Positions 3,325-31,470 of a DNA stretch of 64,000 nt are shown in pieces. Every line of letters begins with the position of its first letter. The stretch's first letter is position 1. A program made the position numbers and the translations under genes. The DNA is taken from NCBI GenBank assembly GCA_001898485.1, contig MKTY01000017.1, forward strand, positions 1 to 64,000, given 5' to 3'. The stretch comes from Sphingobacteriales bacterium 46-32 (GTDB lineage Bacteria; Bacteroidota; Bacteroidia; Chitinophagales; Chitinophagaceae). A model generated the notes under the pieces. The model had not been told where the DNA came from. It was given only the letters and a program-made list of their open reading frames with translations, and ran no database searches.

Positions 3325-3331
3325 AATTGCA

Positions 3332-3463: not shown

Positions 3464-3911
3464 GTTCTTCGTAGTATACATATTCTAAAAAAAATCCTGT
3501 TATGCTTCGTTTGCAACGAAGCATCTGTTTAAACTACCAGACACATCATCAGCTAAAAATCAAATCCAATAAACCACATTTTTTTGCAAAATAGTAATCT
3601 TTGGCACTACTATACATATCATACATCTTTCGGGTAACTATATCTACCCATTCGACCACAGAAAAGGTCACAAAATGAATAGCTGCCTGGGTTTGAATCT
3701 GACACCCACCTTTACCCAGGCTTTTAACACAAAAGGACCAGCATTCCTCCGGCAAATAACTCGTTTACCATACCGAAAAAATGCTTTTTTAACGGTAAGA
3801 TTCTTGTAGAACACCTTTTATACCAACAGACCTTAAACCGAAGTTATACTTAGCTACAAGCTAATCATAATAATTAAAAAAAGAAATTTTTCCAAACTAC
3901 GAAGAACAGGG
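3460..3911. repeat. 450-bp repeat, copy 3 (complete)
   Basis: Same structure as copy 2: terminal inverted repeats around CCCCGTTCTTCGTAGT / ACTACGAAGAACAGGG, a perfect left hairpin at 3502-3524 (10-bp arms ATGCTTCGTT / AACGAAGCAT, loop TGC), a right imperfect hairpin at 3844-3870, and the same transposase N-terminal fossil on the minus strand (3549-3755). Scattered substitutions and 1-nt indels separate it from copy 2, so the copies are not brand new. The left hairpin is perfect here but has one mismatch in the outer arm of copy 2. Confidence 0.85.
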
Positions 3912-3912
3912 C

Positions 3913-4035
3913 ACAGCAATACCAGAGCAGGAACCTCAGCTAACCGAAAATAAATTTTTAGAAAATCTAAAAAAATTATTGCAAAAAAAAATAATTCGTT
4001 TTGATATTTTTATAGCCGCAAAATATCAGGTATAA
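3913..4035 (+). pseudogene. Possible plus-strand C-terminal coding stub next to repeat copy 3
   Basis: A 40-codon open frame starts directly at the right end of the repeat and ends TAA at 4033-4035. It includes PEQEPQLTENKF and IRFDIFIAAKYQV and has a protein-like composition, with no start codon of its own. It may be the tail of a third toxin gene on the other strand, upstream of the immunity-like gene at 4140. Chance is a real alternative at this length. Confidence 0.3.
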
Positions 4036-4139
4036 ATACCAATAAAAAGTACCTTCACAAAGTTTATAGAAACATCACCCTAAAAACGAAAAAGACACAC
4101 GCAAACACTATAATATAGTAAAATAAAATCCAACTCGTT

Positions 4140-4814
4140 ATGCAATTCTTAGTCCTCAAATCAGCTACTGAAAAAAAAATTATCGGCAACCAATATCCCC
4201 AAATTCAAACTATGGGCGGAACTGTTAACAGAGATGCGCAAGATTCAATATACAATGTCTATTCAAATAAGTTTCCAGATTTCACTCCCAATCTAAACCA
4301 TTTCATTCTACATGCCAATGCAAGGCTTACAGACGCATTAAGTGCTGCTATGATTAGCTATGGTTTTATTGTCAATGAAAAGGTAAAAGCGATATTTGAG
4401 CAATATAAATTACCCCAGCATAAGTTTTACCCCGCAACAGTCAAACACAATGAAAAAATTTACAATAACTATTACTGGTTCTTTTTCATAAGTGATGTAC
4501 TTGATTTTATTGACTACGATAAAACCAGTTTCTTTATTACAGATTTGGTGGACAACAAAATTGAAGATTGCAAAAGTATAAAATCTTCAATGGATATAAA
4601 AAAACTCAAAGACTCGCTCATTGGCAAAGGCTATATTAATGCCAAAATAATTCATTTAAAAGAATCTATCTCCTTATCTTATGATTTGTTTAAAATCACG
4701 CTTGGCGATTACCGTACTTACATTTCAGAAAAATTGAACGAAGATCTGATAAAGCAAAAAGTAACAGGATTTGATATTTTCCCGACACAAAAAATATCTA
4801 TAGAATCGAAATAA
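4140..4814 (+). CDS. Putative immunity protein, DUF1629/Imm11-Imm43-like
   Basis: 224 aa, soluble, no signal peptide. The middle part (TDALSAAMISYGFIVNEKVK, then QYKLPQHKFYPATV and NNYYWFFFISDVLDFIDYD) follows the pattern of the DUF1629 (Imm11/Imm43) immunity families: a helix ending in an 'i-s-x-k-v-k-x-i-l-e' element, then F-x-P-V/A, then Y-x-x-x-x-V-x-D-x-x-D. Such proteins neutralise a cognate secreted nuclease or other toxin in the cytoplasm. Here no complete toxin is adjacent, only a possible stub at 3913-4035. It is transcribed opposite to the other cassettes. The assignment rests on pattern likeness, not a search. Confidence 0.5.
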   Translation: MQFLVLKSATEKKIIGNQYPQIQTMGGTVNRDAQDSIYNVYSNKFPDFTPNLNHFILHANARLTDALSAAMISYGFIVNEKVKAIFEQYKLPQHKFYPATVKHNEKIYNNYYWFFFISDVLDFIDYDKTSFFITDLVDNKIEDCKSIKSSMDIKKLKDSLIGKGYINAKIIHLKESISLSYDLFKITLGDYRTYISEKLNEDLIKQKVTGFDIFPTQKISIESK

Positions 4815-4828
4815 ATTTCGGTTCTATA
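4799..4828 (+). terminator. Hairpin at the end of the immunity-like gene
   Basis: 14-bp stem (TATAGAATCGAAAT / ATTTCGGTTCTATA, one G-T pair) with a 2-nt loop, spanning the TAA stop at 4812-4814. There is no T run, so factor-independent termination is uncertain. Confidence 0.4.
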
Positions 4829-4996
4829 GCCTCTGTTTGCTTACTGTTTAACTAGTTGAAATAATCATTTACACTCTTCCTGTACTTCTGTATACTAGTG
4901 ATCTATGCCGCCATTCCCAATCATGCACACAACTAATCAACCCTTTTTAACATAGAAAACTACTATCATCTGCCTGAGATTATGCAGAACAAAAAT

Positions 4997-5389
4997 TTAA
5001 ACTTTTAAGGGAATTGATTTCGATTTACCATTTGCCTCTCCCAGCGTATTATAGTAATACAAAAATCCGTTATCGGAGTAATCCAGAAAAATGACATCCT
5101 CCATCGGGCTTATTAGTTCATAAGATAAACTTTCCAGGTTTATTGCACATACTTTAAATCCCGTAACACAAAACTTTCTTATGAATAAAGGGATATACAC
5201 TCTTTTCTTTTCGATAACGAAAGGTCCTCCAAAAAGAAGATTATTACCGAAAATCTCACCATCAATAAGCAGGCGTCCAACTACAGGACCGCCCTGGGAA
5301 ATTTCCATAAGATTATCATACGAAATAGTTAGCGCACCATTTTTGTATGTGTCCGGGAAATCTGTCGGTGAAACCATGCTTCTTTTCAT
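4997..5389 (-). CDS. Hypothetical protein in the toxin/immunity region
   Basis: 130 aa, soluble, rich in beta-type patterns (GPVVGRLLIDGEIFGNNLLF, FVIEKKRVYIPLFI), no signal peptide. The alternation of short strands resembles small beta-rich immunity proteins, but I do not recognise a family. It lies 27 nt downstream of the 76-aa gene at 5417-5647 on the same strand, so the two are probably co-transcribed. AT-rich like the rest of the first 5.6 kb. Confidence 0.5.
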   Translation of the reverse strand: MKRSMVSPTDFPDTYKNGALTISYDNLMEISQGGPVVGRLLIDGEIFGNNLLFGGPFVIEKKRVYIPLFIRKFCVTGFKVCAINLESLSYELISPMEDVIFLDYSDNGFLYYYNTLGEANGKSKSIPLKV

Positions 5390-5416
5390 CGAAATATAAT
5401 AATAACTAAATGTACT

Positions 5417-5647
5417 TTATTTGATTACAGATAAAAAACGAGCCATGTAGACAGTTACACTATAATAACTAATCCCTTTTTTCAATTCCGATTCAACATA
5501 CCCCTCCTCCACCAGCTTCTCTGGAAAGGCGAAGGAAAACACCCCGAATTTTCTCTCCATGACCCTTGTCAGCTTGTAAGAATCATTAAAGCTCCGCTGT
5601 ATAAGCAGCAGAACAAGCACCAGTTTACTCTTATCCTCAGGTTTCAT
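5417..5647 (-). CDS. Small hypothetical protein
   Basis: 76 aa, helix-rich start (MKPEDKSKLVLVLLLIQRSF), then FPEKLVEEGYVESELKKGIS and a short beta-type end. The middle resembles the recognition half of a winged helix, but this is weak. It precedes the gene at 4997-5389 by 27 nt in the same direction. No partner toxin is visible upstream: the next gene on this strand belongs to the nucleoside operon and is separated from it by a terminator. Confidence 0.45.
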   Translation of the reverse strand: MKPEDKSKLVLVLLLIQRSFNDSYKLTRVMERKFGVFSFAFPEKLVEEGYVESELKKGISYYSVTVYMARFLSVIK

Positions 5648-5707
5648 ATCATTTGCTGATTAAAGCCTACCATGCCGGTGTTTCCGGCAGCCCAGCCCCT
5701 AACCTAC

Positions 5708-5737
5708 AAAAAAAGGAGCAGTTATTATAACTGCTCC
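5708..5737 (-). terminator. Terminator of the ribose/nucleoside operon
   Basis: Perfect 10-bp stem (GGAGCAGTTA / TAACTGCTCC, loop TTA at 5725-5727). On the minus strand it is followed by seven T (5708-5714). It sits 29 bp past the stop of the last operon gene, a classical intrinsic terminator. Confidence 0.85.
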
Positions 5738-5765
5738 CTGCATACATTATCTACGATTCCTCTTT

Positions 5766-6794
5766 TTACCCCTTACCTTTCTCCTTTCGCCCCGTCACCA
5801 ACTCCACCAGCCGATCCAGCACTTGCTGCTGATTATTCTTATAGATAAGATACTGATGCTGGCCCACACCAGCAGTAAATACCGATTTGCCGTCGGCAGC
5901 AATCACAATATGTCCTTTGGGAGAAAGATCGAAATAGGACGAATCAGGCTCTACGGCATACAGCACGGAAGTCAGATCCCAGGTCTGGCGGTCATAGGGC
6001 ATTTTTTCATACACTTTATAGGACATTACCAGCGGATTGGCATCGCCACCTTCAAAATCCTGTTCAATACTCCTGGCGGGATAACGGAATTTGTCGCCAA
6101 TCTCGAAACCACTGGCCACCAGCGGCACGGGACATTGGGCAAACAGTACTTTAGATGCTTCCAGGTCCTGCACAATATTCCATTCGGGAAAATCAAACTC
6201 GTTGGTATATACGCCACCCATGACGGAGACGAGTTTTACTTTTTTCTTTACCAGCTCCACACCACTGAGTGGACTGTATTCGTCGCCGGTTGATTGCAGC
6301 AGGCGGGCTACATTAGTTTCGGGGCCTACTACTACCAGCACTACCGACTGATCGGGTGCCGCTGCCAGCAGACGACGCTGCAGTTTGTATCCCTCGGGAA
6401 GGCTATCGGCTATGCTTCTTTTTGGAAACAACAGCTTCTCGCCATTCACTGTAGTATCCAGTGTGGCCGGCACATACTTGCCTGCTTCCGGGTTCACGCC
6501 ATTATAAGCATAGCCCAGCGGCATGTCATTGTGCCCATTGAGCCGGCAGTAGCCGTCAATATAATCGATCACCCGCGGATTAGACTTGCTGATGGTAATA
6601 CCCAGGAGCTTTACTTTCTGCTGCTTTTCATAATCAAACAGCATCTGAAGCGCGAGTACATCATCGATATCGTTGCCGATATCGGTATCGAAAATAACAG
6701 CCAAAGGTGTTTCTTCTTTTTCCTGCTGTTTTGATGCCGACTGGCAAGCAGCCAGAAACAGCAGCGAAACAGGTATCCAGATCAATGACTTCAT
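5766..6794 (-). CDS. Nucleoside hydrolase (IUNH family), lipoprotein
   Basis: 342 aa. Lipoprotein signal LLFLAACQ (Cys17), then the calcium/ribose-binding signature DTDIGNDIDD at residues 36-45 that defines inosine-uridine nucleoside hydrolases. These cleave nucleosides to base plus ribose. Further family marks are the strand ending in GVYTNEFDFPEWNI and the C-terminal TWDLTSVLYAV. In classical members that last site is H-D, with His as the acid to the leaving base. Here it is W-D, so substrate range may differ. Lipidation places it in the periplasm or at the surface, fitting release of ribose outside the cytoplasm. Last gene of the operon, 11 nt after the preceding gene. Confidence 0.88.
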   Translation of the reverse strand: MKSLIWIPVSLLFLAACQSASKQQEKEETPLAVIFDTDIGNDIDDVLALQMLFDYEKQQKVKLLGITISKSNPRVIDYIDGYCRLNGHNDMPLGYAYNGVNPEAGKYVPATLDTTVNGEKLLFPKRSIADSLPEGYKLQRRLLAAAPDQSVVLVVVGPETNVARLLQSTGDEYSPLSGVELVKKKVKLVSVMGGVYTNEFDFPEWNIVQDLEASKVLFAQCPVPLVASGFEIGDKFRYPARSIEQDFEGGDANPLVMSYKVYEKMPYDRQTWDLTSVLYAVEPDSSYFDLSPKGHIVIAADGKSVFTAGVGQHQYLIYKNNQQQVLDRLVELVTGRKEKGKG

Positions 6795-6805
6795 GTATTA
6801 TTTTT

Positions 6806-8428
6806 TTATTTAGAATAGAATAAGCTTTTGTCTGATTGCAGATCGGTCATTTCATTTCCCTGCAAACCGTACTGATCAAGCGACTGACCAACACCGATAG
6901 CTCCCAGAACCGTATATCCACCTTTTACATAACTGGTATTCGCAAACCGCAAAGACGGTTTATTACCTGCCGGATCGAGTACACTCAATGCCAGCAGATA
7001 CCGGCCCTTGGGTACACCTGAAACTTTCAGCTGTTCATCGATTGTGTAAATAGATGCTTCTTTACTATAAATCTGTTTGCCTTCATCCCAATCATCGCCG
7101 GGCATCCACTGACTGATCTTTACATTTTTCAATATGGTGCTCCAGACCGGTCGCTTCGTTTTGGGATCGAGGAGTGATACCTGCACCGGCCAGTCATAAT
7201 AAAAAGGCGAAGAACCTGTATTGGTCACAGTAAAGCGGATTGACAATTTTTTACCATTATCTATCCGTGCGCTATAGTTCGCCTTGTCAATAACAAACCG
7301 ATACCCCAGTGCCTTTTGCAGATTGGCCGCTGCCTCTTTAAAAGCAGGATCTTCAAAATTGGCCCAGGTAATACCACCCAGGTGATTACAATGCAGATTA
7401 CGAATCTGCTTCATCGTAAGTTTGAAAAACTCCGGATCGGTCACTACCTGCTCGAAGCTTTTGAACCGGGCCAGCGAACCCCAGTTCCAGGTGATCTCTC
7501 CACCTATGGGCTGCGTCTTCCAGCGATCACCCAGTTTCCGCATTTCTTCATACCCCCTCACCTCTTCCTGTGGCTGCGACCAGGAGTCCCAGTAGATGCC
7601 GAATTCGTAATCTTTGAACTCATAGGCATACCGCACCATTATTTTTTTATTCTTAAAGGCTTTGGCAAAAGCATCACCCAGCACTTTTTCCATGCCGGGT
7701 ATCCAGGTGCGGTTAGCAACATGCTCCGGTTCATCATGAGGAGGCCAGTAGGTTGAAAGATCCGGGTCATGATGCTCGCCCCATTCGCCGATAATCCCCA
7801 TCTCTACATAAGCCACCCGCGGATCATTGTCCCAGGCCTTACCCAGCTTTTCGACCAGCTTTGTTACCCGCTCAGGAAAAGCCGGATCGAAATAACCGCC
7901 GGTGATCGGTGTATTTTTATCTGCGGAGTCAACGCGGGCACCCCAGGATCCGGGTATCTGCTTATACGGACTGACTTGCTCCTGAATTCCTTTGGGCCAG
8001 TGTGAACCACTGAGATCATCGGGATTTTTGGGATCCTTGGGGCGACCGCCATGCCAGGGCTCCACCCATACCAGGTATACCCTTGGAATGACTTTCATAT
8101 TCATCTCTTCGACGCCCTGCCAGCGATGATTGCTGTATGCAATGACCTTTCCCACTCCATCTGCTGCATCATCCTCGATCATATTCCACTGCATATACTC
8201 CTTGATCATGCTGCCATAAGGATAGGGATAACCGGCACGTTTTTTATCAACCCCGGGTTGAAAAAACTCCCGTAATCCTTTCATGGGGTTACGAAAAGCC
8301 TGTGGATATTCTGCCAAATCAACACGCACCATACCACGCGGCACCGGGGGTAAATCATCCTGCGCAACGGATGCCTCTGCTATCATTGACAGCATCGCCA
8401 TCAACAGTATTTTCTTTAAAAAATGCAT
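6806..8428 (-). CDS. DUF4832-type glycosidase-like protein, periplasmic paralogue
   Basis: 540 aa with a cleavable signal peptide (cut after about residue 22, ASVA^Q). NPMKGL at 47-52 corresponds to the NPxRGF motif that opens DUF4874/DUF4832 proteins. The centre looks like a TIM barrel: GIIGEWGEHH (Glu215/Glu218) and PIGGEITWNW (Glu311) have the spacing and setting of the acid/base and nucleophile Glu of clan-A glycosidases. Residues about 385-520 form a beta-sandwich (TVTNTGSSPFYYDWPVQVSL). No activity is established for the family as far as I know. The operon context suggests a riboside or nucleoside-derived glycoside substrate. Close paralogue of the preceding gene (12-nt gap). Confidence 0.75.
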   Translation of the reverse strand: MHFLKKILLMAMLSMIAEASVAQDDLPPVPRGMVRVDLAEYPQAFRNPMKGLREFFQPGVDKKRAGYPYPYGSMIKEYMQWNMIEDDAADGVGKVIAYSNHRWQGVEEMNMKVIPRVYLVWVEPWHGGRPKDPKNPDDLSGSHWPKGIQEQVSPYKQIPGSWGARVDSADKNTPITGGYFDPAFPERVTKLVEKLGKAWDNDPRVAYVEMGIIGEWGEHHDPDLSTYWPPHDEPEHVANRTWIPGMEKVLGDAFAKAFKNKKIMVRYAYEFKDYEFGIYWDSWSQPQEEVRGYEEMRKLGDRWKTQPIGGEITWNWGSLARFKSFEQVVTDPEFFKLTMKQIRNLHCNHLGGITWANFEDPAFKEAAANLQKALGYRFVIDKANYSARIDNGKKLSIRFTVTNTGSSPFYYDWPVQVSLLDPKTKRPVWSTILKNVKISQWMPGDDWDEGKQIYSKEASIYTIDEQLKVSGVPKGRYLLALSVLDPAGNKPSLRFANTSYVKGGYTVLGAIGVGQSLDQYGLQGNEMTDLQSDKSLFYSK

Positions 8429-8440
8429 CGTTGATTGATC

Positions 8441-10069
8441 TTATTGTTTTTTATATTTCAGTGTGCGGTCATCCTTCATACTGCGGAATTCAGTAGCAGG
8501 AATTTCATAATTCTCCAGCTCTTTATTGATCCCGATATACCCCATAGGGTGGCGACCACCGATAAAATAATTTTCAATAGCAAAACGCAGGGAAGGCTCC
8601 ATACCCGCCGGATCGAGTACCGAAACAGCAATCACATACTCCTGCTCAGGTAAATCGGTATCGAGTGTTATCTCTTTTTCTATCTGATACACCGGCGGAG
8701 CACTCAGGTATTTGCTGGTAGCTTTATCCCAGTTGTCGCCGGGCATCCACTCGGATATATTCACCCCATCGAGCACCTTACCCCACACTTTTTTCTTTGT
8801 GCGTTTATTGAGCAGTGCAATCTCCACAGGCCAGTTATAGTAAAAAGGAGATGATCCATTATTGACCACCTTAAAAGACACTTTAAAGGGTTTGTTCTTT
8901 TCGATACGGCCGGGATAAGTAAAATCTGACAACACATAGTTATACCCCATTGACTTTTGCAGCAATTCGGCATTTACCTTAAACTCTGTATTATCGAAAT
9001 TGGCCCAGGTAATGCCACCCAGGTGATTGTTGTGCAGGTTGCGGATCTGCTCAATCACTTCTGTGCGCGTAGCAGGATCGGCTACTACCTGTTCAAATGA
9101 ATTGAAGCGTGAAAGGCCTCCCCAGTTCCAGGTAATCTCGCCGCCAATGGGCTGTGTCTTCCAGCGGTCGCCCAGCTTTTTCATTTCTTCATAACCCCGC
9201 ACTTTCTCTTCGGGCTGCGACCAGGAATCCCAATAGATACCGAATTCATAATCTTTGAACTCGTAGGCATAGCGCACCATTACTTTTTTATTCTTAAAGG
9301 CCGACTTGAATGCATCGCCCAGCGTTTTCTCCATACCAGGTATATACGTACGGTTAGCTACGTGAGCAGGTTCATCATGTGGCAGCCAGTAAGTAGAAAT
9401 GTTGGGATCATGCTGCTCACCCCATTCACCGATAATGCCCATTTCCACATAAGCCACACGCGGATCATTATCCCAGGCTTCACCCGCTTTTGCTACCAGC
9501 GCTTTTACCCGGTCCTGGAAAGTGGGATAAAAATAGCCACCGGTAATAGGAGTTACGTCATCATCTACACGTACCTGCCCGGGAATATCTGCAGGCCAGT
9601 GCCAGCCATTGAGATCATCGGGATTGTTGGTATAGGTGTTTTTGGCAACACCACCATGCCAGGGCTCCATCCATACGATATAAATGCGGGGAATCACTTT
9701 CATGTTTATATCCTCCACTCCTGCCCAGCGGTGATTGCTGTAGGCAATGATCTTATCTACGCCATCAGAAGCATAATTCTCGAGCATGTTCCACTGCATG
9801 TATTCCTTAATAAGCGTTCCATAGGGGTAAGGATAATCAGAACGCTTTGGATCAAAACCCGGAGCAAAAAATTCCCGCAGCCCCTTCATGGGGTTACGGA
9901 TAGCTCCGGTAAACTCTGCAGGGTGAACCGTCACGATACCATTAGCTACTTCTACTTTCGGCTCTACTGCCACCTCCGGAAATACTTCCGGCTTTATCTT
10001 TTGACAGGATGCAGCCAGCAGCGCAAGCGACACGGCAGCAAGACCTATTTTTTTATATTGAATTGTCAT
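8441..10069 (-). CDS. DUF4832-type glycosidase-like lipoprotein
   Basis: 542 aa paralogue of the 6806-8428 protein, sharing long identical blocks (GEWGEQHDPNISTYW, IGGEITWNWGGLSRF). It differs at the N-terminus: lipobox LALLAASC (Cys22) instead of a cleaved signal peptide. One paralogue is thus membrane-anchored and the other soluble. The candidate catalytic Glu pair is retained in both. It follows susD by 25 nt in the operon, so it is probably made together with the outer-membrane import complex. Function as a glycoside hydrolase is inferred from fold-like motifs and context. Confidence 0.75.
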   Translation of the reverse strand: MTIQYKKIGLAAVSLALLAASCQKIKPEVFPEVAVEPKVEVANGIVTVHPAEFTGAIRNPMKGLREFFAPGFDPKRSDYPYPYGTLIKEYMQWNMLENYASDGVDKIIAYSNHRWAGVEDINMKVIPRIYIVWMEPWHGGVAKNTYTNNPDDLNGWHWPADIPGQVRVDDDVTPITGGYFYPTFQDRVKALVAKAGEAWDNDPRVAYVEMGIIGEWGEQHDPNISTYWLPHDEPAHVANRTYIPGMEKTLGDAFKSAFKNKKVMVRYAYEFKDYEFGIYWDSWSQPEEKVRGYEEMKKLGDRWKTQPIGGEITWNWGGLSRFNSFEQVVADPATRTEVIEQIRNLHNNHLGGITWANFDNTEFKVNAELLQKSMGYNYVLSDFTYPGRIEKNKPFKVSFKVVNNGSSPFYYNWPVEIALLNKRTKKKVWGKVLDGVNISEWMPGDNWDKATSKYLSAPPVYQIEKEITLDTDLPEQEYVIAVSVLDPAGMEPSLRFAIENYFIGGRHPMGYIGINKELENYEIPATEFRSMKDDRTLKYKKQ

Positions 10070-10094
10070 CTTTAATCAGAATTTGAGTGAAGGA

Positions 10095-11522
10095 TTAGTA
10101 CCCGGGATTGTTTGCGGTAATTGCTTCGTTGGCATCCAGCGCTGCCTGTGGCAGTGGATACAGGTTATGATGATCCTGAATGGCGATACCGGCGCGATCT
10201 GCCAGGTATTGCTTCAGTTTACCAAAACGGATCAGATCAAAACGACGGAGGTGCTCAAAACAAAGCTCATGCAGGCGTTCCTGCAGTACCACGTCGGCAA
10301 ACTGCTGCTGGCTGAGGTTGTCGGCTGCCGTAATATCGGCAATACCTGCGCGGCGACGCACCTGGTTGATTGCATCATATTTGGCTGTAGTGCCGTCGTT
10401 CACCGCATTGAGTGCTTCGGCTTTCATCAGCAACACATCTGCATAACGAATGAGAATAAAATTGAGCTGGTCGTCTTCAATTACATTCCCAAATTCAGGA
10501 TCCCAGAACTTATTGTTACAGGCGGGCGACTGCGTCACCCCATTATAAGAGGTAAGGAAAAAGGCCGTCTTGCGCTTATCGGTATTCTCAAAACTATTGT
10601 ACACGTAATTGGTTGGACCAAAACCACCCCAGCCACCAAAGTTGGTCGGGCCACCTACACCACGCGGACCCCAGTAGCTGTGCTGAATGCTTCCCTCCAG
10701 CCCCCATGAACCGGAGTGGCGGAACTGTACTTCAAAAATGTTCTCATACTCTGCATTCTTGTTTTTGGGATGAAAGATATCTTTCAGGTTAGTGTATAAA
10801 TGAAATTTACCATCGAGTTTGTTGCAATACACCAGCGCATCGCCGGGTTTACCCCATTGCAGGTAAATGCGGGCCAGGAAAGCCTGTGCCGCATAAGAAG
10901 TAGCGCGTCCTTTGTCTGCAGCATTGGGCCAGGTAGTGGGCAATGCTGCTTCCGCATCTTTCATATCCTGTGTGATGAGCTGATATACTTCATCGACAGT
11001 GGCACGGGGTTTCATGATCTCCTCATCAATAGATGATTTAGTCCACAAGGGCACGCCGCCATACATTTTTACGAGGTCGAAATAATAAATGGCCCGCAGA
11101 AATTTGGCCTGCGCCACCATCAGCGTCCTTGTATTGTTATCAACAACACCAGCCGGCATATCTATTACTGCATTGCTGCGTTTCACGCCTTCATAACACA
11201 CCCGATAATGATCCTGGAAAAAAGGGTGACTGGCGCTGAAGGTGTACATCTTCAGCTCCGAATAGGCTGCCCAACCCAGATCATAAGGCTCCACTTCATC
11301 GGTACCAAATTCGGAAAGAGTGATCGTATACTTTCCTACAAATACCCGTTGCATGGCAGCATAAGCCGCATTGAGGGTTTTCTGCCAGTCTTCCGGAGTG
11401 GTATAGGCATTCTCCGGTGTCTGAATACTACGGGGATCTTCGGTCAGGAACTTGCGGCAACTGCTCAGCGCCAGCAAGGCTACAATGATGATGAAATAAT
11501 TCTTTTTCATATTGCAATTCAT
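10095..11522 (-). CDS. SusD/RagB-family outer-membrane nutrient-binding lipoprotein
   Basis: 475 aa. Lipobox LALSSCRKF (Cys22) followed by the usual FLTEDP of SusD proteins, the TPR-like N-terminal half (AYAAMQRVFVGKY, QAKFLRAIYYFDLVKMYGGVPLW) and the conserved C-terminus (ILIRYADVLLMKAEALN, RRRAGI, LQERLHELCFEHLRRFDLIRFGKL). SusD caps the SusC channel and captures ligand at the cell surface. Its ATG overlaps the stop of susC as TAATG, indicating translational coupling. An internal Met (residue 5) is also a reasonable start. In this operon the ligand is likely a nucleoside or riboside. Confidence 0.93.
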   Translation of the reverse strand: MNCNMKKNYFIIIVALLALSSCRKFLTEDPRSIQTPENAYTTPEDWQKTLNAAYAAMQRVFVGKYTITLSEFGTDEVEPYDLGWAAYSELKMYTFSASHPFFQDHYRVCYEGVKRSNAVIDMPAGVVDNNTRTLMVAQAKFLRAIYYFDLVKMYGGVPLWTKSSIDEEIMKPRATVDEVYQLITQDMKDAEAALPTTWPNAADKGRATSYAAQAFLARIYLQWGKPGDALVYCNKLDGKFHLYTNLKDIFHPKNKNAEYENIFEVQFRHSGSWGLEGSIQHSYWGPRGVGGPTNFGGWGGFGPTNYVYNSFENTDKRKTAFFLTSYNGVTQSPACNNKFWDPEFGNVIEDDQLNFILIRYADVLLMKAEALNAVNDGTTAKYDAINQVRRRAGIADITAADNLSQQQFADVVLQERLHELCFEHLRRFDLIRFGKLKQYLADRAGIAIQDHHNLYPLPQAALDANEAITANNPGY

Positions 11523-14467
11523 TAGAAGTTGATTGAAAGGCCAGCCATAAAGGTTCTGGCATTGGGATAGGGGTTTGTATTATCACCCGACTCTACATCA
11601 TACCCGGTAAACTGTGTCCAGGTAAATGCATTCTGCACAGAAGCGTATACGCGCATACCGGTCGATTTGATACGGCGCACGAAACTGCTGGCGGGGAAAC
11701 TGTATCCGAGTTCAATATTGCGCAGGCGCAGATAATCGCCTTTTTGCAGGTTGGCATCGGTACCATCACCATTGGCATAGGGACTGCCTACACGCGGAGC
11801 GGGATAACGCTGGCTGGGGCGCGTAGGCGTCCAGTAGCCATTGTAATAATCCACACCCATATTACCCCATGTATTGAAAGCATTGAGATAACGGTTGAGC
11901 GAATTGTTGATCATATGTCCGCCTGCGTAGGTAAAGAATGTAATCAGGTCAAATCCTTTATACTTGAATGTATTGGTAAAACTTCCGTAGAACTTAGGTA
12001 CTGCCACACCGGCAAACTGCCGGTCATCGCCGTTGATCACACCATCTTTATTAACATCTACCACTTTGCGGTCACCAGGCTGGGCATTATACTGCGCAGC
12101 CTGCGCTGCTTCGCTCGTTTGCCAGATACCATCCGACTTCAGCGTATAGAAAAGATTGATAGGCTGACCTACAAACAACGACTTATTTACATCCAGTTTA
12201 CCACCATACAACTCGGCAATCTTATTCTGGTTATAAGAAATATTACCGGCCGTTGTCCAGCTAAAATCGCGGGTGCTGATGTTTACGGTAGTCAGCGAAA
12301 GCTCAATACCTTTATTATCGATCTGGCCAATATTCGTCAGCGAATTATCAAAGCCTGACTCGATCGGCAATGGCACCAGCCACAGCAGATCAGTTGTTTT
12401 CTTGTAATAGGCATCGAGTGTACCGGCTATCCGGTTTTTGAAGAAGCCGAAGTCGATCCCGATATCAAACTGGTTAGCTTTTTCCCAGGTGAGGTTGGGA
12501 TTGGCAATCGTGTTCTGCACAGAACCGGTAGCCAGGTTACCACCAAAAACATAATCAGCCCACTCACCACCCTGGCCGATTGTAGCGGCGTAGGCATAAT
12601 CACCGATATTCTGATTACCGAGTTTACCTGCACTCAAACGCAGCTTCAGTTCACTTACCGCTCCGGCATTTTCCATAAACTGCTCATTCGATATACGCCA
12701 GGCCAGTGCGGCTGACGGGAAGAAGCCCCAGCGATGTCCCGGTGCAAAGCGTGATGAACCATCCTGACGCATGGTAACGGTAAACAGGTAGCGATCATCA
12801 AAATTGTAATTCACCCGGCCATAATAGGAAGTAAGCGTAGACGCCGATGCATAGGAATAGTTGGGACCATGGTTTTGTGCGCCACCCAGATTATCGTATC
12901 CCAGAATGGGAGAAAGGTTTTTGGAGTCGGCCGTCGTACTTTCATAATCATATTTGGATGCAGAAAAACCACCCATCACCACAAACCTGTGCCGGTCGCT
13001 CAGTTCAAAATTATAGGTAGCCGTATTCTCTGTCTGCATATATCTTTTCTTGCCGTTGAACTTTACGGCATGACCACCATCGGGATAATGTTGTCCCATG
13101 CGGCCATCTTCATAAGAATTCACATTGAAAAATTCGAGCTCGGCTCCGTTATCGGAACGGATCTTCAGGTTTTTGATTGGTTCGATTTCGAAGTATACCG
13201 ATCCTACTGCACGGCTCTTGGCAGTACTCTTATCGAGCAGATCCACGATAGCTACCGGGTTGGCCTTGGTATTAAGGAATCCATCGAAGTAATCGCCATT
13301 GCTGGTAAAGATAGGCGCTGTAGGCTGTGAACTGATGGCGCTAAACATAGTACCATAGCCGGAATCACCTTCTTCGTTGATATTTTTCAATTTTGATTCA
13401 ATGATATTGAAGCGGATGCCGGTCCGGAGCCAATCCATTGTCTGCGCGTCCATATTGTAACGAAGCGTTACTTTCCGGAATGATGAGTTTTTGATTGTAC
13501 CGATCTGGTTGTAATAATCAGCGCCCAGGAAATGGGTTACTTTTTCATTACCACCGGAGATACCGAGGTTATAGTTGCTGAAACTTCCGTTCTGAGTGAT
13601 GGCATCCTGCCAGTCGGTGCTTTCGCCACGGCTCAGCAGGCGCAGCTCTTCCGAGGTCCAGGTATAATCAGGCACCGCTTTAGATGCCAGCTCATAATAC
13701 TGCTGGGCATTCATCATCTTTTGTTTGTTGAGCATCCGCTGGGTGCCGCTATTAACATTCAGTGTCACACGTCCTTTACCTTTTACGCCTTTGCGTGTAG
13801 TAACCAGTATCACACCATTTGAACCGCGCGAGCCATAAATAGCAGCCGAAGACGCGTCCTTTAATACTTCAATCGATTCAATATCGCCCTGTGAAAGATC
13901 CTGCAGACCTCCTTCTACGGGAATACCATCTACCACATACAGTGGAGCATTACCGGCCCGCAGTGAACCTGAACCGCGGATAACCACAGAAGCATCACCG
14001 CCGGGTTTTACGGAGCCGGTAGATACGAATACACCGGCGGCCAGTCCCTGCAGGGCGCTCGTAGCAGTACCCACGCGTGCATTTTTCAATCCATCAGGCT
14101 TAATGGTAGTTACTGATCCGGTCAGGTCACTTTTTTTGGTGGAACCATACCCTATTATCACCACATCGTTGAGGTTAACCGCTGCGCTGATCAGTTGAAT
14201 ATTGATCGTAAAATCGTTGCCCACGACAACAGTTTTGGAGACCATTCCCGTATGAGAGAATTCAATTATTTCCCCTTTATCTGCCTGGAGTGTAAAGCGT
14301 CCGGCAGAGTCAGTAGCAGTGCCGCGTTTTGTATTCTTAACGGATACCGATACACCTGCCAGGGGCATATTGACCTCATCGGTGACCAGTCCGTTGATTT
14401 TAGTCTGTGCATACAGCAGGCTGGTACACAGCAAACCGATGCATGCAAAAAATAGTTTTTTATACAT
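11522..14467 (-). CDS. SusC/RagA-family TonB-linked outer-membrane transporter
   Basis: 981 aa. Signal peptide 1-20, carboxypeptidase-like regulatory domain about 24-100 (INGLVTDEVNMPLAGVSVSV), TonB-box motif NDVVIIGYG, plug domain (NAPLYVVDGIPVEGG, DIESIEVLKDASSAAIYGSR, NGVILVTTRKG), then a beta barrel to the C-terminal FMAGLSINF. It forms the TonB-driven import pore with the SusD protein encoded next. The length is typical. Preceded by the TIG/Lcl lipoprotein gene (51-nt gap). Confidence 0.95.
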   Translation of the reverse strand: MYKKLFFACIGLLCTSLLYAQTKINGLVTDEVNMPLAGVSVSVKNTKRGTATDSAGRFTLQADKGEIIEFSHTGMVSKTVVVGNDFTINIQLISAAVNLNDVVIIGYGSTKKSDLTGSVTTIKPDGLKNARVGTATSALQGLAAGVFVSTGSVKPGGDASVVIRGSGSLRAGNAPLYVVDGIPVEGGLQDLSQGDIESIEVLKDASSAAIYGSRGSNGVILVTTRKGVKGKGRVTLNVNSGTQRMLNKQKMMNAQQYYELASKAVPDYTWTSEELRLLSRGESTDWQDAITQNGSFSNYNLGISGGNEKVTHFLGADYYNQIGTIKNSSFRKVTLRYNMDAQTMDWLRTGIRFNIIESKLKNINEEGDSGYGTMFSAISSQPTAPIFTSNGDYFDGFLNTKANPVAIVDLLDKSTAKSRAVGSVYFEIEPIKNLKIRSDNGAELEFFNVNSYEDGRMGQHYPDGGHAVKFNGKKRYMQTENTATYNFELSDRHRFVVMGGFSASKYDYESTTADSKNLSPILGYDNLGGAQNHGPNYSYASASTLTSYYGRVNYNFDDRYLFTVTMRQDGSSRFAPGHRWGFFPSAALAWRISNEQFMENAGAVSELKLRLSAGKLGNQNIGDYAYAATIGQGGEWADYVFGGNLATGSVQNTIANPNLTWEKANQFDIGIDFGFFKNRIAGTLDAYYKKTTDLLWLVPLPIESGFDNSLTNIGQIDNKGIELSLTTVNISTRDFSWTTAGNISYNQNKIAELYGGKLDVNKSLFVGQPINLFYTLKSDGIWQTSEAAQAAQYNAQPGDRKVVDVNKDGVINGDDRQFAGVAVPKFYGSFTNTFKYKGFDLITFFTYAGGHMINNSLNRYLNAFNTWGNMGVDYYNGYWTPTRPSQRYPAPRVGSPYANGDGTDANLQKGDYLRLRNIELGYSFPASSFVRRIKSTGMRVYASVQNAFTWTQFTGYDVESGDNTNPYPNARTFMAGLSINF

Positions 14468-14517
14468 AGCCGTATGTTGTAATTATTTGAAGACTTGAGT
14501 TAGATAGCCGTAAAGGA

Positions 14518-15678
14518 TCAGAAAGAACGGATGGCGCGCACGCCGATCTTCCATCCTTCCTTATCCGAATTGCCGGATACGATATTGACGGCTTCATAAA
14601 AATTGACATAGAATGCCGACCAGCCAGCGGCATCGCCATCGCCTTCGCTGGAACTCCAGTAGTTGTTGGCAGGCATACCAGCGCCGTGGGCCCAGAGCAT
14701 GTCTTTGGCTTTGAACAATTCTATCAATTCCTGTTGAGAGGGAAGAAACCAGTCGGTATAGGTATCTCCGTTGACGGTCACACTCAGCTCATCGCAGAGC
14801 TCAAATGCGGCTTTTTTATTATTCCAGTTGGAGAAATTCTGACGGAATGTAACCATTTTGGCCTGCAGCTTACTGGTATTACTCTTACCAGCGCCCAGGT
14901 CTTTGCTGGTGCCGGCGGCGCCGGAGAGCGCCACGCCCGGACCAAACTGTTCAACGGCCGTACCGGTATTGGTTTTATTAACAATATAGCCATGAAGTCT
15001 GCTGCTTTCGGTGTAGTAAACGACACCGCCACCTACTTCATCACCCACATTTACCTGGATGCCGATCGTTCCCAGGATGGTTTTGCGTTGTGTACCGCGG
15101 GTCACGATCACATTATTTACCCCATACACATCGGCAGGTAACTGAAAGCTGAGTCCCTGTGCGGTCACCGTAGTGGGAATGGAAATCACTTTATCAGCGG
15201 GGTAGAAGGAAGCCGTGAGCTGTATCATGTCTCCTGACTCAAAACCTTCGCCACCGATATTGACGGTAGCGCCCAGCGCAAACGGAGTCGTTGGCATGAC
15301 CACATTCTCCAGTACAATCACAAAAGGCACACGCAGTTCGCCATCGAGTGTGGTTTGTTTTCCGGCACGTTCAATAGTCACCGTATACGCACCACCGGCT
15401 TCGCGGGGTACCAGAATGCGGATCGACTCATCGGTTACTTCCAGTACTTCTACCTGGGTCATACCATTGTCGTCCTCAATAAATACTTTATCAGATACAT
15501 CAAAGCCTTTGCCGCGGATCGTAGCCGGGCTACCGGGCATCACATCATTTTCATTGGGAAAAACAATGTTTTTAAGGATGGGGGCAATAGGCACCGGAGG
15601 CGGTGCATCGTCTTTTTTGCAGGAGATAATGCCTCCGGCAAAAAAGACAGCGAGCAAGCAAATCGCTACTTTTTTCAT
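14518..15678 (-). CDS. Surface lipoprotein with TIG repeats and an Lcl/DUF1566 C-terminal domain
   Basis: 386 aa. Lipobox followed by CKKDDAPPP, a strong match to the Bacteroidota surface-export signal (acidic pair after Lys next to Cys). Two IPT/TIG immunoglobulin-like domains follow (about 35-115 and 120-205). The last 180 residues match the Lcl C-terminal (DUF1566) domain: WFLPSQQELIELF, NYWSSSE and the closing GVRAIRSF. That domain occurs in adhesins that bind glycosaminoglycans. Placed directly upstream of susC, it is in the slot usually held by SusE/SusF-type surface binding proteins and may be the extra ligand binder of this system. Confidence 0.75.
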   Translation of the reverse strand: MKKVAICLLAVFFAGGIISCKKDDAPPPVPIAPILKNIVFPNENDVMPGSPATIRGKGFDVSDKVFIEDDNGMTQVEVLEVTDESIRILVPREAGGAYTVTIERAGKQTTLDGELRVPFVIVLENVVMPTTPFALGATVNIGGEGFESGDMIQLTASFYPADKVISIPTTVTAQGLSFQLPADVYGVNNVIVTRGTQRKTILGTIGIQVNVGDEVGGGVVYYTESSRLHGYIVNKTNTGTAVEQFGPGVALSGAAGTSKDLGAGKSNTSKLQAKMVTFRQNFSNWNNKKAAFELCDELSVTVNGDTYTDWFLPSQQELIELFKAKDMLWAHGAGMPANNYWSSSEGDGDAAGWSAFYVNFYEAVNIVSGNSDKEGWKIGVRAIRSF

Positions 15679-15729
15679 TTGACAGTCGTTTTTGTTTCAC
15701 GAAAGGGGGTTAATCAACGAAACGGTTAT

Positions 15730-16731
15730 TCAAAGACCTGCTGCAATCACCAGTGCCAGGCCTGCTACAAACAGGATAAACATGGCTGCAATCAGGTTTT
15801 TAACTTGTTTTGAACTGCCGGCAAATTCTTTCCAGATCAGCACGCCCCAGATGGCGGCTACCAGGGTGGCACCCTGGCCAAGACCATAGGAAATGGCCGG
15901 ACCGGCCTTGCCGGCTGCAATGAGATTAAAAAGATTTCCAAGGGCCCAGATAGAGCCACCGAGGATACCGATAAAATGCAGGGGTGTGCGGCCTTTGAAA
16001 TATTCCGCATAGCTGATCGGTGATCCCTGCAGGGGACGCCTCATCATCACCGTATTGAACAGCAGGTTGCTGAGCAGGATACCAGCAGCAAACACTACCG
16101 ATGCCGTATAGGGTGTCATCTTCTCTGCTTCAGGATTCACAAAATTGTCGAGATCCATAGCACCTGCCACAAAGCGATAGAAAAATGACATAAGCAAACC
16201 CGCTACGATGGAAAGAAGGATACCTTTTGCACCGGCTTTGGAAACCGTGGCTGTTTTTTTCTTATACGCTACTGCATTCAGTATTATCGCCAGCGACACC
16301 AGTGCCACACCGGCAAAGAGCAGCAATGGATCACCTTTCTGGTGACTCGCATAGTTGATGATAACACCTACGACCAGCGCCAGGCCGATTCCTACCGGGA
16401 ATGCTACTGACATACCGGCAATAGCAATGGCCGAACTCAGGAGAATATTGGCCAGGTTAAAGATGATGCCGCCAAGCAGGGCACTGCCGATATTAGCATT
16501 GGAAGCCTGCTGCAGATCGGCCATAAAAGGACGTCCCTGATCACCATTGCTGCCCAGTGTAAAAGCAGCCAGCAGTGAAAAAAGGAAAATACCGATCACA
16601 TAGTCCCAGTAAAATAATTCATAGCGCCAGCGGCCTGCCGCCAGCTTTTGCGTATTGGCCCAGGAGCCCCAGCACAACATGGTGATGACGCAAAAGACAA
16701 TAGCCAAAGGATAACTTTCGACGATAAACAT
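15730..16731 (-). CDS. GRP-family sugar (probably ribose) permease
   Basis: 333 aa, about ten hydrophobic segments arranged as two similar halves. The start MFIVESYPLAIVFCVITMLCWGSWANTQKL (given here only as a description of the first helix) carries the C-W-G-S-W-A-N motif typical of the GRP/RbsU-GlcU branch of the drug/metabolite superfamily. These proteins move monosaccharides across the inner membrane. Its place 28 nt after ribokinase makes ribose the likely cargo. Rhamnose or glucose cannot be excluded from sequence alone. Confidence 0.75.
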   Translation of the reverse strand: MFIVESYPLAIVFCVITMLCWGSWANTQKLAAGRWRYELFYWDYVIGIFLFSLLAAFTLGSNGDQGRPFMADLQQASNANIGSALLGGIIFNLANILLSSAIAIAGMSVAFPVGIGLALVVGVIINYASHQKGDPLLLFAGVALVSLAIILNAVAYKKKTATVSKAGAKGILLSIVAGLLMSFFYRFVAGAMDLDNFVNPEAEKMTPYTASVVFAAGILLSNLLFNTVMMRRPLQGSPISYAEYFKGRTPLHFIGILGGSIWALGNLFNLIAAGKAGPAISYGLGQGATLVAAIWGVLIWKEFAGSSKQVKNLIAAMFILFVAGLALVIAAGL

Positions 16732-16758
16732 ATGACAGCAATTAAGGGGTTAGTTTGG

Positions 16759-17703
16759 TTAGTTCGCCGGATTGATGGAAGCCAGGTTGAGCTGTACTGC
16801 CACCAGTTCGTTTCTATGCGGAATGGATGATTGTGCACCGAGCCTTGTTACCGAAATAGCCGCCGCCTCACAGGCAAATCCTACCGCCGCTTCCAGGTCA
16901 CGCCCTTCGGATAGCGCTACAGCCAGCGCTCCATTGAATACATCGCCCGCAGCGGTGGTATCTACTGTTTCTACTTCGCGCGCTCTGACAAGGCTGATCT
17001 TCTTTCCATCACAGATCACCGCACCCAGCGGTCCCATGGTGACCACTACATTTTTTACACCCATCGAGCAGATGGCCAGGGCAGCACGACCGGCCGAATC
17101 AATATCCGTCACGTCCATACCGGCAATCATGGCCGCCTCTGTTTTGTTGGGAGTAAGAATATCGACCTGGCTCAGCATATCGGCAGGTAATGCAGCAGCC
17201 GGTGCAGGGTTAAGGATTACTTTCACTCCTTTGCCAGCTGCATATGCAACCACGTGCTGCACGGTAAGCAGCGGAATTTCGAGTTGCAGCAATACAATAC
17301 CAGCTGTTTCAATTTCTTTCAGGGCTGATGCAATGTCTTCGTCTTTGAGGTGAGCATTGGCGCCGGAAGCAACCACGATGCTGTTTTCGCCGGCTTTGTC
17401 GACAGTAATAAGCGCTACACCGGAGGGGCGCTCATCATCGAAACGCAGATGAGTGATATCGATACCCTCGTTGCTGAACAGTTGAGAAAACTGTTTACCA
17501 AAAAGATCATTACCAAGTTTGGAGATAAAAACCACTTCGCCGCCCAGCCGGGCTACGGCTACTGCCTGGTTGGCACCTTTGCCACCGGCATTCATAAAAA
17601 AGGAACCGGATAAGACAGTTTCACCGGGTACGGGAATATGGTCTGTTTTAACCACCATATCCATATTGGAACTGCCCACAACTACAATTTTGGCTGATTT
17701 CAT
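16759..17703 (-). CDS. rbsK: Ribokinase
   Basis: 314 aa PfkB-family kinase with both signatures: GGKGANQAVAVARLGG near residues 40-55 and DTTAAGDVFNGALAVAL from residue 248, with Asp254 as the catalytic base. The start KIVVVGSSNMDMVVKTDHIPVPGET is typical of ribokinase rather than fructokinase or adenosine kinase. It makes ribose 5-phosphate from ribose in the cytoplasm. First gene of the operon: a -7 box lies about 40 bp upstream of the ATG. The operon also encodes a nucleoside hydrolase, closing the path from nucleoside to ribose 5-phosphate. Confidence 0.9.
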   Translation of the reverse strand: MKSAKIVVVGSSNMDMVVKTDHIPVPGETVLSGSFFMNAGGKGANQAVAVARLGGEVVFISKLGNDLFGKQFSQLFSNEGIDITHLRFDDERPSGVALITVDKAGENSIVVASGANAHLKDEDIASALKEIETAGIVLLQLEIPLLTVQHVVAYAAGKGVKVILNPAPAAALPADMLSQVDILTPNKTEAAMIAGMDVTDIDSAGRAALAICSMGVKNVVVTMGPLGAVICDGKKISLVRAREVETVDTTAAGDVFNGALAVALSEGRDLEAAVGFACEAAAISVTRLGAQSSIPHRNELVAVQLNLASINPAN

Positions 17704-17741
17704 ACAGTAAGCTGTTAATAGATTTTTCGAATCGTTGTAGC

Positions 17742-17749
17742 CAAATGTA
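17742..17749 (-). promoter_or_regulatory. -7 promoter element of the ribose/nucleoside operon
   Basis: Reads TACATTTG on the minus strand, an exact TAnnTTTG match. It lies 38 bp before the rbsK ATG. A TTG lies 16 bp farther upstream, a shorter spacing than the usual 19-20, so only the -7 box is firm. The 157 bp beyond (to 17906) are very AT-rich and shared with the divergent gene. Confidence 0.6.
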
Positions 17750-17906: not shown

Positions 17907-19385
17907 ATGTCTCTATTGCCGGCTATCCGCCTGGTGCAATCCTTATCGGGGTCTGAAAAGCGTTTCTTCAAGCTCAATACCCGCCAGCAGAGGGGAGAAA
18001 AAGATTACCAGGAATTGTTTGACATTATCTGTAGCAGTGGTCCGCAGTCAGAAGAAATTGCGATGCGTTTCAAAACAGCCTTTCCCAAAAGCAATGTAGA
18101 TAATACCGCTCGCTACCTGGTACGTGTACTCACCGATTGTCTTATTCAGCAACGCACACAAAAAGACGGTTTCTTTCAGCTGTTTCAGGGCATCATGCGG
18201 GTAAAAGTGTTGCAGGAGCGGGCTCTCCCCGAAGAAGGATACAGGGAACTGAAACGTATACGTGAAAATGCCAACCGTCATCAACAACACTTCATTGAAT
18301 ACCTTACCTACCGATACGAACTGGATCATCTCTCCGGCACCGGCTTTGCAGATGTTAGCGATAGCCAACTGGTGCAAACACAAATGAAAGCACGTGAGGT
18401 ATTAAAAAGTATGAATCATGTGCAGGATCATCACTCCCTGTTTGAAATGATGAAATACCGGCTCCTGCATGCCGGTCAGATCCTGGCAGATGAAGATCGC
18501 AAAAAGCTCAACGACCTTATGCTGAGCGAAATGATCCTGATGACGGGAAAAACGAAAAACATCTTTGCCACGCAAAAACTGCACCTGCTCTTTCAATCGT
18601 ATTTCCTGACCAATATCGGCGATTTCTCTTCTGCACTTAAAACCTATCGCGAGCTCAACAAACTGTTTGAAGACAACCTGCCATTGCTCGATCATCCGCC
18701 ACTCGACTACCTCTCCGCCCTCGATGGCATCATCACCAGCCTGGGTATGCTGAAAAATTTTGAGGAGATCCGGTATTATACTACCCGGCTGCAGCAACTG
18801 GACCAACCGGCATATCCCGAATATTTCCGCTATCAATTGCGCAAAACCATACTGGCTGTACAACTATCTATTCATACCGCTACCGGACAATATGAAAAAG
18901 CCCGGGAAATACTCAACGAAACCGGTAAAGACCTGATTACTGCTTATGGCATGGTGAATGAAGAAAAACAATGGGAACTCTATTTCTATGCAGCGCTTAG
19001 TCATTTCGGTTGTGGCGATCTGAAAAAAGCACATAAATGGCTGGGCGAAGTCATGCAACTTTACAAACCACAGCCCAACCTGCTGATATGTAAAGCAGCG
19101 CGTTTACTCAACATCATCATTTATCATGAAATGGGTGATGCGGATTATATCAGCTACGAAATCCGCGCGTATACCCGTTTTTTTCACCGCCCGCAATCAC
19201 CGCGACTGCAAACAGAAACCGCCTTGCTTAAACTTCTGCAACTCTCCCCTACCCCTGCCCTGAAGCTGCGGCCAACGGCCACCCTTAAAAAATTGCAGGA
19301 AAAGATTGATCAATTGAAAAATGATAAATACGAGCAGCAGTTGCTGCGCTATTTTGATTTTGCGGGGTGGATGAAAAAATATTAA
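17907..19385 (+). CDS. Conserved Bacteroidota protein of unknown function, TPR-like helical
   Basis: 492 aa, no signal peptide or membrane segment, almost entirely helical. It opens LLPAIRLVQSLSGSEKRFFK, an opening I associate with a Bacteroidota family of unnamed helical-repeat proteins. Repeated helix pairs in the middle (QKLHLLFQSYFLTNIGDFSS, YFYAALSHFGCGDLKKAHKW) look TPR-like, suggesting a protein-binding role. Divergent from the ribose operon across a 200-bp AT-rich gap, a common place for a regulator, but no DNA-binding motif is evident. Followed by a GC-rich hairpin. Confidence 0.55.
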   Translation: MSLLPAIRLVQSLSGSEKRFFKLNTRQQRGEKDYQELFDIICSSGPQSEEIAMRFKTAFPKSNVDNTARYLVRVLTDCLIQQRTQKDGFFQLFQGIMRVKVLQERALPEEGYRELKRIRENANRHQQHFIEYLTYRYELDHLSGTGFADVSDSQLVQTQMKAREVLKSMNHVQDHHSLFEMMKYRLLHAGQILADEDRKKLNDLMLSEMILMTGKTKNIFATQKLHLLFQSYFLTNIGDFSSALKTYRELNKLFEDNLPLLDHPPLDYLSALDGIITSLGMLKNFEEIRYYTTRLQQLDQPAYPEYFRYQLRKTILAVQLSIHTATGQYEKAREILNETGKDLITAYGMVNEEKQWELYFYAALSHFGCGDLKKAHKWLGEVMQLYKPQPNLLICKAARLLNIIIYHEMGDADYISYEIRAYTRFFHRPQSPRLQTETALLKLLQLSPTPALKLRPTATLKKLQEKIDQLKNDKYEQQLLRYFDFAGWMKKY

Positions 19386-31427: not shown

Positions 31428-31470
31428 ATACACTTTTAGGTTGTACGTTAAGTTACGGAAGAGATGATCA

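Follow-up and report, generated by a model that had tools for sequence, protein, structure and literature searches.

The operon at positions 5708 to 17749 of the window (the 64,000-nucleotide stretch analyzed here, positions 1 to 64,000 of contig MKTY01000017.1 from Sphingobacteriales bacterium 46-32) combines a ribokinase, a SusC/SusD pair, and a nucleoside hydrolase (NH). It therefore raises the question of how it relates to the rus locus of Bacteroides thetaiotaomicron, which was reportedly described by Glowacki et al. in 2020 together with a survey of rus variants, and of what molecule it would take up.

Gene content and boundaries of the operon

Eight tightly packed genes run along the minus strand from 17703 to 5766, with intergenic gaps of 27, 51, 50, -1, 25, 12, and 11 bp (range, -1 to 51 bp), in the order ribokinase, DMT/GRP permease, TIG/Lcl lipoprotein, SusC, SusD, two DUF4832 genes (D1 and D2), and NH, followed by a terminator. 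Since this order is conserved across orders of the Bacteroidota and the gaps are short, the arrangement lies far beyond chance. All eight genes of the original prediction were confirmed at their place on the minus strand by family matches, which exceeded the cut-offs by wide margins except for Lcl_C.

The first gene, rbsK/rusK (16759..17703, minus strand), scored 358.6 bits against the TIGR02152 ribokinase model (cut-off, 299.65 bits) and also matched PfkB. It is followed by a DMT/GRP-family inner-membrane permease homologous to RusT (15730..16731, minus strand; Ureide_permease, 85.6 bits; Sugar_transport, 38 bits), which is predicted from its sequence to import ribose. The TIG/Lcl-type surface lipoprotein (14518..15678, minus strand; TIG, 36.6 bits; Lcl_C only below its cut-off) is a candidate substrate-binding protein, and most of its relatives have a lipobox with acidic residues after the cysteine. 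Next come a SusC-type TonB-dependent outer-membrane transporter (11522..14467, minus strand; TIGR04056, 863 bits) and the SusD-type lipoprotein that forms its lid (10095..11522, minus strand; SusD_RagB, 127.6 bits). D1 (8441..10069, minus strand; 43.6 bits) is a lipoprotein with a conserved lipobox cysteine, and D2 (6806..8428, minus strand; 60.3 bits) has an ordinary signal peptide here; both exceed the DUF4832 (PF16116) cut-off of 29.2 bits. The last gene encodes a lipoprotein NH homologous to RusNH (5766..6794, minus strand; PF01156 [IU_nuc_hydro], 68 bits; cut-off, 34.2 bits), the sole PF01156 match in the genome. The distinctive gene set originally proposed, namely, one ribokinase, two DUF4832 genes, and a TIG lipoprotein, is thus present by family matches, with Lcl_C falling below its cut-off.

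A TAnnTTTG-type -7 element, TACATTTG (17742..17749, minus strand), precedes rbsK and is retained with the same spacing, 46-48 bp upstream of the rbsK start, in four Chitinophagaceae relatives (L032, L052, L054, and L059); a fifth relative has TAGTTTTG instead. This constancy supports the predicted promoter, which would be of the Bacteroidota type, and no good match to a -33 element was found upstream of rbsK. A scan for sigma-70-type promoters was uninformative, as expected in Bacteroidota. At the other end, the predicted intrinsic terminator (5707..5739, minus strand) was borne out by a 12-pair stem (5739-5713) followed by a T run.

The gene set as first described omitted a likely regulator. 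A divergent gene (17907..19385, plus strand) encodes a TPR-repeat protein (TPR matches only) homologous to RusR. In Chitinophagaceae, Bacteroides, and Dysgonomonas, such a gene lies next to rbsK in the loci that could be assessed; most other loci have a LacI gene instead. On this sequence evidence, the TPR protein likely regulates the operon.

Relation to rus and exchange of cassettes

The rus locus of B. thetaiotaomicron comprises BT2802-BT2809 (PMC12596196, PMC10434189), with BT2804-2809 ordered as ribokinase, TonB receptor, SusD, DUF4969 protein, NH, and DMT permease (PMC10434189); ribose activates the BT2803-2809 polysaccharide utilization locus (PUL) under the control of RusR (PMC12596196; PMC12548429). 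We made the comparison through L133, a Bacteroides locus of the same gene order. Four window components have homologues in L133: the ribokinase is 54% identical to its first ribokinase, the permease 61% identical to its last-gene permease, the NH 54% identical to its NH, and the TPR protein shares 30% identity across 487 residues with the product of the TPR gene that adjoins rus at the same place. The window and B. thetaiotaomicron rus therefore have in common an adjoining RusR-like TPR gene, a ribokinase, a SusC/SusD pair, a glycosidase-like gene, a lipoprotein NH, and a RusT-type DMT permease, and the NHs of the window and L133 share a supported clade in the NH tree.

In contrast to B. thetaiotaomicron rus, the window operon has one ribokinase rather than two, two DUF4832 proteins rather than one DUF4969/4978 protein, and an additional TIG/Lcl lipoprotein; its permease gene is second rather than last, and its regulator is divergent. 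Its SusC and SusD also belong to a different clade, being only 28% and 27% identical, respectively, to RusC and its B. theta-type partner, whereas they are 69% and 71% identical to those of the Bacteroides DUF4832 variant. Since the window operon carries neither a second ribokinase nor a DUF4969/DUF4978 gene, it is not of the B. theta rus subtype.

The link between the two arrangements comes from within Bacteroides. In L135, a DUF4832 cassette (2667-11521) stands in place of the SusCD-DUF4978 cassette of L133 (reverse-complement 4519-11521), and the flanks on both sides, which cover the regulator, ribokinases, NH, and permease, are 75-91% identical at the DNA level. The window's whole SusCD-DUF4832 cassette thus has a match in Bacteroides that is swapped for its B. 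theta-type counterpart between common rus flanks. Given this swap, the window operon is a rus variant rather than a non-gut speciality; indeed, the same variant is found in gut Bacteroides, Alistipes, and Dysgonomonas as well as in free-living relatives, so the original emphasis on a non-gut lineage was wrong. The assignment to the rus type itself is supported by the Bacteroides cassette between shared flanks and by homology to a locus whose gene order is the one published for B. theta, and the gene-neighborhood comparison that had been suggested located the window's cassette inside a Bacteroides rus locus. We consider it highly probable that the window operon is a rus-type ribose-scavenging operon representing a distinct, phylum-wide variant.

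The DUF4832 rus loci L055, L057, and L072, which belong to Bacteroides congonensis, Bacteroides sp. GM023, and Dysgonomonas sp. BGC7, have a TIG-SusC-SusD-D1-D2-NH cassette order identical to that of the window, although they carry two ribokinases, a permease gene after NH, and a GH97 gene downstream. The NH tree joins the B. theta-type NHs and the DUF4832-linked NHs of Bacteroides as sister groups (98/96) and nests the former in the DUF4832-linked clade; this nested placement has moderate support (AU test, P = 0.03, for a group named after the tree was seen). An earlier AU test (P = 8.9e-5) was discarded because a further nested row, L034, confounded it.

The nucleoside hydrolase and the DUF4832 pair

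The predicted structure of NH (pLDDT, 91.3) has a nucleoside hydrolase fold that matches the plant nucleoside hydrolase 4kpo (Z, 29.5; 2.7 Å over 276 residues), and the metal- and ribose-binding residues D38, D44, D45, E204, N206, and D273, which include the E-x-N motif and the conserved aspartate, are invariant or nearly so. All Bacteroidota DUF4832 loci with sufficient downstream sequence carry an NH. D2 and NH are separate genes in the window, unlike in L055, L062, L068, and L135 (Bacteroides among them), where they are fused as a single open frame; NH is likewise fused to GH97 in L067.

The two "glycosidase-like proteins" of the original prediction are both present, but they are paralogues of each other (~62% identical). 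Glutamate-containing GExGE and GGEITW motifs are retained in both across the aligned set. The D2 model (pLDDT, 89.7) is a TIM barrel with glycosidases as its nearest structures, including a GH14 beta-amylase (Z, 17.6; 3.9 Å over 281 residues) and a GH5-type endoglycoceramidase (Z, 14.6; 4.1 Å over 287 residues). Although the predicted fold is alike, these top matches (Z, about 14-18) are only 8-13% identical to D2 and show fold, not activity, and single-sequence and profile searches of DUF4832 against solved structures gave no meaningful match and no solved glycosidase. D1 and D2 are predicted to be glycosidase-like TIM barrels, and they may have glycosidase activity. DUF4832 receives only passing mentions in the literature searched: such proteins occur in the vicinity of Gram-positive pel clusters or together with dockerins, where they share the Pfam domain with D1 and D2 but have an exopolysaccharide or cellulosome context, with no NH or ribokinase reported (PMC7112168, PMC7480376). 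What is new here is a pair of DUF4832 proteins, putative sugar-cutting enzymes, that is tightly linked to a ribose-releasing NH.

Candidate substrates

In the working that we infer, a ribose-containing molecule would be captured at the cell surface by three lipoproteins (the TIG/Lcl protein, SusD, and D1) and be transferred by SusC into the periplasm, assuming that the operon proteins occupy these compartments. The DUF4832 proteins would take off a sugar or other glycosidic decoration, NH would cut the riboside bond, and the RusT-like permease would take up the free ribose for conversion to ribose 5-phosphate by the ribokinase. The divergent TPR protein would turn the operon on, presumably in response to ribose.

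A path from a nucleoside or riboside to ribose 5-phosphate had been proposed originally, and a plain nucleoside is one option for its start. However, the DUF4832 pair, together with its GH97, GH127, and CE2 partners, points to a decorated riboside, a reading that we hold tentatively, at slightly less than an even chance. The low identity of SusC and SusD to the B. theta-type pair implies that the imported molecule may differ from that of B. theta-type rus. GH97, GH127, CE2, and SASA partners recur among DUF4832 loci. The target would be a glycosylated riboside that is trimmed before NH frees its ribose. The fuller proposal, that DUF4832 is an undescribed glycosidase family stripping sugars from ribosides and that this rus variant lives on glycosylated ribosides, be they glycosylated nucleosides or glycans that contain ribofuranose, is doubtful. 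The literature searched described no dedicated pathway for glycosylated ribosides and had nothing on "ribofuranosidase" with polysaccharide utilization.

It is also possible, if somewhat short of probable, that the operon scavenges plain nucleosides, with D1 and D2 being noncatalytic binders or acting on nucleotide or RNA fragments. NH retains the residues expected of an N-ribohydrolase, and its invariant W272-D273 pair resembles the purine-stacking Trp of trypanosome IAG-NH (Trp260, per the PDB title), which has a neighboring Asp; a profile alignment of the C-terminal NH motif to IAG-NH did not reach that region. The unusual conservation of SusCD between gut and free-living species (69-71%) would also suit a ubiquitous molecule. 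However, the glutamate motifs kept in both paralogues would be needless for pure binding, and the recurring partners (GH97, GH127, CE2, and SASA) also speak against an ordinary nucleoside.

Alpha-galactosyl-beta-ribofuranose repeats occur in bacterial O-antigens or capsules, and the operon might instead be a PUL for such a ribofuranose-containing polysaccharide, with NH acting as an O-ribofuranosidase. The GH97 that is fused to or adjoins NH is of the retaining alpha-galactosidase type (474 bits to 3a24 versus 164 to SusB), carbohydrate-type esterases adjoin NH in Pseudoflavitalea-type loci, and the closest solved relative of SusC is a dextran SusC (8aa4), all of which would fit. This last similarity is too distant to carry weight, however, and dextran as the substrate was rejected on the same ground. 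Moreover, neither an endo-acting polysaccharide lyase nor a large surface depolymerase was seen, the invariant Trp of NH suggests an aromatic leaving group, and GH97 is absent from the operons of the window and its Chitinophagaceae kin, making this explanation unlikely. That the kinase- and NH-like genes serve another pentofuranoside, such as an arabinofuranoside, is very improbable: the permease family is broad and, in two rumen loci, a GH127 gene (beta-L-arabinofuranosidase family) comes after the operon, but the kinase exceeds a curated ribokinase cut-off, and NH and the permease share 54-61% identity with their counterparts in a rus-type locus, rus being reported as ribose responsive (PMC12596196).

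For DUF4832, a family of no known function, the fusion to a nucleoside hydrolase provides a concrete hypothesis, along with a testable candidate substrate class. More broadly, rus emerges as a modular locus in which the regulator, ribokinases, and RusT are constant and SusCD-enzyme cassettes are exchanged, one of these cassettes being little changed from environmental Chitinophagaceae to gut Bacteroides.

The operon and its kinship with rus

Eight minus-strand genes, running from 17703 to 5766, encode a ribokinase, a DMT/GRP permease, a TIG/Lcl lipoprotein, SusC, SusD, two DUF4832 paralogues (D1, 8441-10069; D2, 6806-8428), and a nucleoside hydrolase (NH, 5766-6794), in that order. Intergenic spacing ranges from -1 to 51 bp, a TACATTTG element conserved among Chitinophagaceae relatives lies 46 bp upstream of the ribokinase start, and a 12-pair hairpin followed by a T run closes the operon. 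The original prediction had described these features correctly but had left out the divergent TPR protein gene (17907-19385, +). The operon NH is the sole PF01156 protein of the host genome (5.5 Mb, 27 contigs), and the closest operon-bearing relative is a metagenome-derived Chitinophagaceae bacterium. Two other products in the window lack a Pfam match: a 200-residue protein (19482-20084, +) whose HLHCIW motif resembles by eye a REP-associated or IS200-like transposase, and a 968-residue open frame (28599-31505, -) between genes for valyl-tRNA synthetase (25879-28500) and an asparaginase-type protein (31540-32706).

The BT2803-2809 locus is a ribose PUL controlled by RusR, with RusT as the putative ribose transporter (PMC12596196), and is activated by ribose (PMC12548429). 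Its BT2804-2809 genes encode a ribokinase, TonB-dependent receptor, SusD, DUF4969 protein, nucleoside hydrolase, and DMT permease (PMC10434189). The Bacteroides locus L133, called B. theta-type on its layout, has the identical order, preceded by a TPR gene and a second ribokinase. The window ribokinase, permease, and NH are 54%, 61%, and 54% identical to their L133 counterparts, and the TPR proteins are 30% identical over 487 residues; SusC and SusD reach 28% and 27%. This homology, together with the presence of the same cassette at the Bacteroides rus locus, supports the predicted assignment to rus.

Cassette exchange at the rus locus

The TIG-SusC-SusD-D1-D2-NH cassette was found in ~25 additional Bacteroidota genomes, including Pseudoflavitalea, Flavihumibacter, other Chitinophagaceae, Sphingobacterium, Mariniphaga, Dysgonomonas, Alistipes, Bacteroides, and rumen Bacteroidales. 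The variant is nonetheless thinly spread, occurring in 4 of 294 Chitinophagaceae (a fifth genome had only a 28% match), 5 of 120 Bacteroides, and none of 394 other genomes sampled from the class; the permease occurs in 38 of the 120 Bacteroides. In one Pseudoflavitalea-like complete genome (L032), SusD spans two overlapping frames (9966-11380), reflecting either a frameshift or an assembly error.

In Bacteroides, the cassette occupies the rus locus itself. The DUF4832 locus L135 shares 75 to 91% DNA identity with L133 across the regulator-ribokinase flank, NH and RusT, and the far flank, whereas L135 positions 2667-11521 are replaced in L133 by an unrelated SusCD-DUF4978 segment. In the NH tree, B. 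theta-type NHs are sister to Bacteroides DUF4832-linked NHs (98/96), inside the DUF4832-linked clade (AU P = 0.03, moderate support). Given the shared flanks, the swapped segment, and this tree, rus is, as judged from sequence, modular, and the cassette's location and the NH placement support the window operon as a probable rus variant by descent. Two further Bacteroides loci (L136 and L137) lack the SusCD segment and carry NH and a d0-cluster gene downstream of the permease; in L138, one d0-cluster gene encodes an ADP-ribosylglycohydrolase.

Chitinophagaceae, Bacteroides, and Dysgonomonas loci have the TPR protein as regulator, and most remaining loci have a LacI protein; none of the compared loci had both. 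A TTATATAAA...ATTAATGT stretch lies upstream of both the Bacteroides DUF4832 loci and L133. Separately, L133 and a second Bacteroides locus, L134, share an 11-kb rus operon that is 93.5% identical in DNA, yet their flanks and regulator types (TPR versus LacI) are different, which suggests that this operon moved by horizontal transfer.

The DUF4832 pair

D1 retains a lipobox cysteine in all compared loci; most Bacteroidales encode D2 as a lipoprotein, whereas the window copy and those of several relatives bear an ordinary signal peptide. In the predicted D2 model (pLDDT 89.7), beta domains come after a TIM barrel. Among solved structures, the model aligned best with a GH14 beta-amylase (Z 17.6, 281 residues, 3.9 Å) and an endoglycoceramidase (Z 14.6, 287 residues, 4.1 Å), the latter ranking first in Foldseek; the barrel is common to both at 8 to 13% identity. 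Both paralogues keep GExGE (E215, E218), which follows one strand, and GGEITW (E311), which lies on a later one; these glutamates may form the sort of pair a glycosidase requires.

D2 and NH form a single open frame in L055, L062, L068, and L135, with loss of the NH signal peptide, and L067 encodes an NH-GH97 fusion. In ten loci, a GH97 gene adjoins either NH or the permease; the single GH97 examined matches the retaining alpha-galactosidase type, scoring 474 bits against 3a24 versus 164 against SusB. One Chitinophagaceae group (L032 and L053) has a CE2-type esterase downstream of NH, and GH127 or a SASA esterase occurs in Bacteroidales loci. Because of these fusions and neighbors, we infer that DUF4832 proteins, NH, and sugar-removing enzymes act on one substrate. 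Alpha-galactosidases recur in rus-like loci, and four Bacteroides loci with a ribokinase-permease pair (L146, L147, L148, and L151) carry DUF4434 proteins, CE2 esterase, GH27-type alpha-galactosidase, and ADP-ribosylglycohydrolase-cluster genes.

The D2-NH fusion genes of two ruminant Bacteroidaceae (L062, 9992-12586; L068, 8136-10712) adjoin a nitroreductase, with a TonB-plug protein farther upstream; SusCD, ribokinase, and permease were not found nearby. Distant D2 relatives (35 to 39%) in Verrucomicrobia and Planctomycetes (L077, L078, and L079) neighbor sulfatases, GH31, and esterase-like genes. Since neither NH nor ribokinase was found near these relatives, DUF4832 extends beyond ribose systems.

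Predicted pathway and substrate

The TIG/Lcl protein and SusD would capture the substrate, SusC would import it, the DUF4832 proteins would trim it, and NH would cleave the riboside; the RusT-like permease would import ribose for phosphorylation by the ribokinase. The prediction that NH is an N-ribohydrolase-type enzyme is well supported, since its fold matches plant NH (Z 29.5), its catalytic positions are conserved, and it has an invariant Trp-Asp pair. This pair presumably resembles the base-stacking Trp260 of trypanosome IAG-NH, by which analogy the Trp would favor an aromatic, nucleoside-like leaving group. Glycosylated nucleoside-like ribosides would fit best with both the sugar-removing partners and the NH Trp. 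Plain nucleosides are a possible substrate; the invariant Trp counts against a substrate that is polysaccharide only. The window operon is ordinary in kind, and it is DUF4832 that poses a testable question.
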